NCBI GenBank assembly: GCA_024641855.1
Contig: JAHECG010000001.1
Span: 62,001-126,000, forward strand
Length of the DNA: 64,000 nt
Origin: Betaproteobacteria bacterium
GTDB taxonomy: Bacteria > Pseudomonadota > Gammaproteobacteria > Burkholderiales > Thiobacteraceae
Direction of reading: 5' to 3'
Notes under the pieces: model-generated
Database searches by the model: none
Told to the model about the DNA's origin: nothing
Seen by the model: the letters and a program-made list of their open reading frames with translations, nothing else
Made by a program: the position numbers and the translations under genes
Shown here: piece by piece, positions 25,331 through 25,672 of the stretch
How the letters are laid out: each line of letters opens with the position of its first letter
How positions within the stretch are numbered: position 1 is the first letter of the stretch

Positions 25331-25456
25331 GGAGGAGAGCCCGAGAGGTTTAAGGCGCGGCTTGGTCTTGGCGGCGCGCTTTGCCGACGCTTGCGTAGAC
25401 TAACTTGCATCAGCAAGTTATGTCGAAGCTAAAACCAGCGCAGTGGACAGTATTTA
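25331..25456 (+). pseudogene. tRNA-Ser-like partial unit 1 with 60-bp insertion
   Basis: First 126-bp unit. It starts GGAGGAGAGCCCGAGAGG, like a class II tRNA 5' half but with several changes from the functional tRNA-Ser. It keeps the end of the anticodon stem and loop (GGTCTTG ... AAAACCAGCG) but has 60 bp inserted at 25371-25430 and no T-arm or 3' acceptor strand. From position 29 on it is identical to unit 2. It ends CAGTATTTA exactly at the start of unit 2. Whether it is transcribed is unknown. Confidence 0.75.
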
Positions 25457-25582
25457 GGAGGTGTGGCCGAGTGGTTTAAGGTATGGCTTGGTCTTGGCGG
25501 CGCGCTTTGCCGACGCTTGCGTAGACTAACTTGCATCAGCAAGTTATGTCGAAGCTAAAACCAGCGCAGTGGACAGTATTTA
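25457..25582 (+). pseudogene. tRNA-Ser-like partial unit 2 with 60-bp insertion
   Basis: Second 126-bp unit. Its first 25 bases match the functional tRNA-Ser exactly. It then diverges (GTATGGCTT) and carries the same 60-bp insertion at 25497-25556, between the bases matching T34-G35 and A36. After AAAACCAGCG it has CAGTGGACAGTATTTA and abuts the intact tRNA. It lacks the T-arm and the 3' acceptor strand, so it cannot fold into a normal tRNA. Confidence 0.78.
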
Positions 25583-25672
25583 GGAGGTGTGGCCGAGTGG
25601 TTTAAGGCACTGGTCTTGAAAACCAGCGAAGGGGAGACTCTTCCGTGAGTTCGAATCTCACCGCCTCCGCCA
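25583..25672 (+). tRNA. serT: tRNA-Ser(UGA)
   Basis: A 90-nt class II tRNA with encoded CCA. Acceptor GGAGGTG pairs with CGCCTCC. The anticodon stem CTGGT/ACCAG encloses loop CTTGAAA with anticodon TGA at 25617-25619. The long variable arm (GGGGAGACTCTTCC) and T-arm (GAGTTCGAATCTC) are complete. It is preceded without gap by two tRNA-like partial units, so processing of its 5' end must occur in an unusual leader, or it has its own promoter around CAGTATTTA. Confidence 0.96.

Follow-up and report, generated by a model that had tools for sequence, protein, structure and literature searches.

Within the stretch of DNA analysed here (the window, 64,000 nucleotides), an intact tRNA-Ser(UGA) gene lies between genes for a Bax1-I family membrane protein and for MscL (Table 1). 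Two tandem units with a period of 126 bp (unit 1, 25331-25456; unit 2, 25457-25582) precede it, the second abutting the mature tRNA. The original prediction had drawn attention to this period, to the identity of the last 98 bp of the two units and to a 25-base match between unit 2 and the tRNA, and the sequence bears out all three: the 7 differences between the units all fall in their first 28 bases, and unit 2 is identical to the mature tRNA over exactly 25 bases. Each unit had also been described as carrying a tRNA-Ser 5' half, which is indeed present, but the half is not bare, as it continues into a hairpin insert, a short piece of the anticodon arm and a linker.

Table 1. Features of the array and its neighbourhood, in window coordinates
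Feature	Position	Strand	Remark
Bax1-I family membrane protein, upstream neighbour	24465..25169	-	context conserved in genus
Promoter-like site TTGGAA-18-TATGAT, probable tRNA promoter	25249..25278	+	upstream of both units
Unit 1, degenerate tRNA-Ser 5' half, to CTTG of anticodon loop	25331..25370	+	
Unit 1, hairpin insert	25371..25430	+	core model match 25390-25436
Unit 1, AAAACCAGCG (3' anticodon arm) and 16-nt linker	25431..25456	+	
Unit 2, tRNA-Ser 5' half	25457..25496	+	first 25 bases as in the tRNA
Unit 2, hairpin insert	25497..25556	+	core model match 25516-25562
Unit 2, AAAACCAGCG and 16-nt linker	25557..25582	+	
Intact tRNA-Ser(UGA)	25583..25672	+	
Terminator-like hairpin 3' of tRNA	25679..25704	+	1 found, 0.7 expected by chance
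mscL, downstream neighbour	25791..26237	+	context conserved in genus

The order in each unit is tRNA-Ser 5' half, CTTG, 60-bp hairpin insert, AAAACCAGCG and 16-nt linker. The 10 nt of AAAACCAGCG, which follow the insert in both units, belong to the anticodon loop and stem, on their 3' side. As the uninterrupted counterpart in the real tRNA reads CTTGAAAACCAGCG, the anticodon loop is broken by the insert between positions 35 and 36, where CTTG meets AAAAC. The bases that immediately precede the unit resemble those that precede the tRNA, both in the window and at one locus elsewhere, L003 (CAGTATACA/CAGTATTTA, AGTATATA).

The promoter-like site is the one sigma-70-like site that the region contains, against 0.8 expected by chance; relatives show a comparable TTGG...TATNAT spacing, and TATAAT stands just before the unit at three loci in other genomes (L067, L069 and G029). 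Lying between this probable promoter and the tRNA, the units are probably transcribed as a tRNA leader, in this genus and in others. Only the tRNA itself matches Rfam in the window, other matches falling far below the gathering score, and the window units fold no better than shuffled sequence.

Units at tRNA-Ser(UGA) across genomes

Searching the genome with the 126-bp unit, a check proposed with the original prediction, places the array once in the assembly, a 182-contig draft in which the copy number of two is as assembled. The core hairpin of the insert occurs once more, on another contig. This third, weaker core copy (L128, G000:C169:32661-32699) lies within a larger palindrome (CTTACTATTTT...AAAAAGTAAG).

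The arrangement is matched in 6/8 genomes of the genus; the relatives have one diverged unit each, which lies at the same Bax1-I/mscL locus wherever contigs permit checking. Some relatives have decayed units or none. In the family's other genus, a DNA search found no such unit at tRNA-Ser; one of its genomes (G009) has a weak core match just upstream of this gene. A pattern scan of the whole collection returned 26 stretches, 4 of them without a tRNA nearby and 22 of them units at tRNA-Ser(UGA), the latter in metagenome-assembled genomes (MAGs) that are betaproteobacterial in essentially all cases, or otherwise proteobacterial; at one locus (L075) the tRNA side reads N. At the 21 loci other than the window, the tRNA-shared part after the insert is mostly 10-13 nt long, and the 5' half of the unit is identical to the following tRNA at 28-36 of 36 positions, with the exception of one register-shifted comparison.

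It had been anticipated that relatives with only a plain tRNA-Ser at this site would reduce the array to an assembly artefact or a private neutral duplication. Relatives do not show just a plain gene; one or more diverged units are present. The draft state of the window's genome and the contigs of some relatives that end near the locus would leave room for an artefact, but the same junctions recur in independent assemblies from many families, including assemblies of few contigs. For the unit as such, artefact or private duplication is refuted by the relatives, and as an account of the array we regard it as scarcely credible.

Most loci have one unit, the window two, L080 three and G029 four, and several genomes carry identical tandem copies, which supports the earlier suggestion of an expanding repeat, as a secondary process. 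In G029 the insert of the first unit differs from that of the other three, whereas the 5' halves and linkers are the same, so separate insertions or replacement of the insert must be involved.

The core is a dispersed, covarying hairpin

The core of the insert, about 45 bp long, folds into a hairpin that has an extrahelical base and an internal GNA/GNA loop; a second hairpin usually lies in front of it. Read by eye, its consensus is TTT-C-RGY-GNA-GRC-TAAY...RTTA-Y-GYC-GNA-RCY-A-AAAC. GNAG is conserved at the foot, with GTAG as one variant, present in the window copies; REP hairpins have a GTAG-type tetranucleotide at their 5' foot.

A search with a covariance model of the core (R1) yielded matches in 67/300 genomes of the order, with up to about 15 copies per genome, and in 0/226 genomes of the class outside the order under strict filters; the whole-collection scan turned up a diverged version in one gammaproteobacterial MAG. 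An alignment of 53 copies, fitted to the model, shows pairing in 95.3% of cells and double changes in 124 cells against 41 in shuffles. The covariation score is 0.461, compared with 0.192 for shuffled and at most 0.083 for slid versions, and the closing triplets change jointly (AU to GC, UA to CG).

Core tandem arrays also occur away from tRNA genes, with periods of roughly 70-125 bp (L147, L127 and L192); further ones lie at G113:C19:180427-180630 and G264:C32:6480-6680.

Recurrent targets among tRNA and protein-coding genes

The tRNA-Ser(UGA) gene is one of three tRNA targets. At tRNA-Phe in G008, a degenerate 5' half is followed by the core, AAAATCCGCG, a linker and the intact tRNA-Phe, while the sister species G009 has an empty site with a conserved upstream region; in G004 a unit is present at tRNA-Phe by sequence and its core scores weakly. 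The third target is the anticodon loop of tRNA-Ser(GGA), in G154. Separately, the window's genome shows a second tRNA-Phe start upstream of its tRNA-Phe gene, with a run of N between them (L217, G000:C91 around 14253-14343); this is probably another, unreadable unit.

Protein-coding genes are hit at recurrent positions as well: the core lies at the start of ruvC in four genomes and of murG in three, at epimerase-type starts in several genomes, at a prepilin-peptidase-type start and at several gene ends. In purL, named by sequence, it is apparently inserted in frame (L132, G044:C68:2800-3400), which may be compared with the palindromic elements in Rickettsia genes. These unrelated targets have only AAAAC or AAAAT in common. 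The earlier proposal that the tRNA serves an element as its target thus gains support, as the insert is dispersed in the order and occupies the anticodon loops of three tRNA genes and protein-coding genes.

The same dispersal weighs on the idea that the units are a conserved functional RNA in the tRNA-Ser leader, kept by selection for processing or regulation. The conserved, covarying structure and the position of the units between a promoter-like site and the tRNA would suit such an RNA; the core, however, also occurs in ruvC, murG, purL and many other places, units are decayed or absent in some relatives, and the folding and Rfam results for the window give it no help. We therefore consider a leader RNA very improbable, and in our view the units are tolerated scars more than a regulator.

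At two loci (L173 in G023 and L183 in G275), displaced gene starts run into the core and soon stop, leaving a short frame, resembling a leader peptide, ahead of the intact gene; translational coupling to that gene is possible.

Direct duplications begin at the edge of the core

The flank that follows the core was compared with the one that precedes it in 86 copies; these are not all independent, as some belong to sister genomes or to one array. In 34/86 copies the flanks form direct repeats that exceed the 99th percentile of mismatched controls; most start at the AAAAC that touches the core, and they extend over about 20 to more than 50 bp. About half of the copies have no detectable flanking duplication. 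In protein-coding genes, the gene body is followed by an intact gene end, a spacer, the core and, on its far side, the displaced gene end. The idea that each insertion makes an inverted target copy holds only in part: inverted copies of the junction immediately left of the core are enriched without being general, with 9/86 above the 99th percentile.

Among six duplicated protein-gene ends, 45/53 differences fall at third codon positions, and in murG of G154 the intact and displaced ends are separated by 9 silent differences and zero amino-acid changes. Both copies have thus diverged while coding, which shows that horizontal recombination has also shaped these loci, an intact end and its displaced counterpart often deriving from different lineages. 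At L067 and L069, the tRNA alleles appear swapped between unit and gene, which also fits horizontal recombination.

These duplications bear on whether the core is a REP-like element mobilised by an IS200/IS605-type (Y1) transposase or a RAYT. Its irregular hairpin, its extrahelical base and the GNAG motif at its foot are in keeping with this, and Y1_Tnp is common, in 47/67 core-positive and 134/233 core-negative genomes. Yet IS200/IS605 elements insert without duplicating the target, so that the long direct repeats at 34/86 copies are unexpected for such a mechanism. Furthermore, several copy-rich genomes are without a Y1_Tnp match (G045 with 9 copies, G264 with 10, G254 and G130 with 5 each), and no Y1 gene adjoins the core among the copies listed. 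Mobilisation of this kind seems to us distinctly unlikely. Dependence on RAYT or Y1 as such is unsupported, 20/67 core-positive genomes being without a Y1_Tnp match.

DNA held between insert copies

One genome, G002, has a tRNA-Ser gene whose halves are about 1.1 kb apart, the DNA between them being enclosed by two direct insert copies. The order is 5' half, insert, 10 nt from the 3' arm and linker, followed by an intact tRNA-Ser that is a different allele, genes for a Gp49-like toxin and an HTH_37 protein, a second insert and a complete 3' half directly before mscL. The HTH_37 match has an E value of 4.7e-6, just under the family cut-off, and the stretch contains this toxin-antitoxin-like pair and no integrase. 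A mirror case is seen in G169 and G091, where the insert and then a tRNA-Ser 3' half lie downstream of the intact gene. Together, these arrangements indicate that DNA can be held between two direct insert copies. The locus in G002 (L024, G002:C5, about 1.2-2.3 kb) is itself of note for its Gp49/HigB-like toxin and HTH_37 antitoxin-like genes in a gene cassette-like, hairpin-bounded setting. A reading of the core with a complete 3' half as a tRNA intron was not retained: the pattern recurs in only two further genomes of 349, one a rearranged array and the other a contig-end case.

The cassette in G002 and the foreign gene ends raise the further prospect that the units are attachment-site scars of tyrosine-integrase islands or phages, in which integration at the anticodon loop split the gene, an island brought the replacement gene end, its body was later deleted and hairpin att DNA was left behind. 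Genomic islands in tRNA genes characteristically regenerate the target and leave a displaced fragment (PMC4383910). Neither an integrase nor an island body is seen, however, and mostly just 60-130 bp separate the gene copies; for 20 copies followed up to 20 kb to the left, a distant second copy of the displaced end is absent. The unit is likewise absent from mobile-element collections, with matches in phages and plasmids limited to the tRNA 5' half and none in viral contigs, and the many targets, alike only in AAAAC/AAAAT, also speak against it. We judge this origin unlikely.

A putative miniature mobile element

In our view the units are probably scars left by a miniature, palindromic mobile element that, on insertion, also duplicates or brings in the target end; the unit in the window would then have been doubled. 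On this model the element would insert before AAAAC or AAAAT and, in tRNA-Ser(UGA), at the CTTG/AAAACC junction in the anticodon loop. The part of the target next to the insertion site would be duplicated or imported in a coupled step, leaving an intact gene and a displaced fragment, which in the window would be the 5' half, with the intact tRNA downstream. Ordinary tandem duplication would then have doubled the 126-bp unit, and tandem recombination would more generally multiply units of core and target end. The core hairpin may serve as the recognition structure, being joined before AAAAC; strand transfer or site-specific recombination acting on hairpin DNA seems most likely.

The mobility of the element is our inference from single genomes, mostly MAGs. 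Counting against the model, no transposase or recombinase was identified, about half of the copies are without a flanking duplication, no movement was seen between strains of the same species, and horizontal recombination has also shaped the loci. The core repeat, which recurs in tRNA and protein-coding genes of which an intact copy is kept, suggests a family of tiny mobile elements not described before, whose mechanism stands a fair chance of being new. Word searches of the literature, outside most subscription journals and repeat databases, found no such element described, and searches for the core strings, again outside most subscription journals, found them in no relevant paper, the one match being an unrelated chickpea marker paper. 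More tentatively, the core may represent an undescribed class of mobile hairpins, largely restricted to the betaproteobacterial order, that enters tRNA anticodon loops and the ends of conserved genes before AAAAC/AAAAT, moves unlike known transposition, comes to lie between two target-end copies and carries replacement gene ends between species; we would put this as a possibility more than an expectation.

Large mobile DNA classically lands in tRNA genes; here the same is done, repeatedly, by a hairpin of 60 bp, whose targets, three tRNA genes and several housekeeping genes, are not destroyed. If the element is active, it would be a minimal model for gene-preserving insertion, and it may account for tandem repeats, odd pieces of tRNA and duplicated gene ends that many betaproteobacterial genomes contain. 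Should the gene-end replacement reading be true, even essential single-copy genes would be usable as targets. All of this raises a testable question, namely which enzyme moves such hairpins.

Comparison with known systems

Several known systems share part of this anatomy. The 178-bp repeats at E. coli tyrT, associated with rtT RNA, are tandem and lie downstream of tRNA-Tyr, each with a 3' piece of the adjacent gene. The array in the window likewise consists of tandem repeats that each hold a piece of the adjacent tRNA gene, but it lies upstream, and its 5' half is split by a dispersed hairpin. Integron gene cassettes carry attC sites with R and L boxes, recombined by IntI. Like attC, the core forms an imperfect hairpin that has an extrahelical base, and a gene cassette can be bounded by direct copies of it (G002); it is set apart by motif reading, as its conserved motifs do not read as R and L boxes. 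Miniature inverted-repeat transposable elements (reviewed in PMC10969869) are also small, non-autonomous hairpin DNA, from which the core differs in that neither the terminal inverted repeats of known transposons nor a target duplication of fixed length was found.

REP/REPIN-RAYT systems (PMC3116915) resemble the core more closely, as short, dispersed, imperfect, non-coding palindromes with many copies and tandem clustering. The core copies are dispersed imperfect palindromes too, in low numbers (1 to about 15 per genome), but the core is longer, has another consensus, sits in tRNA anticodon loops and gene ends, is flanked by long duplications and occurs in several copy-rich genomes without a RAYT. 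Genomic islands in tRNA genes (PMC4383910) similarly split a gene at a fixed site and leave an intact gene and a displaced fragment; in the units described here, by contrast, about 60-130 bp are inserted, without an integrase and in many unrelated genes, and the displaced piece is the 5' half. REPINs and genomic islands in tRNA genes are therefore the nearest kinds, each of which fails a defining feature.
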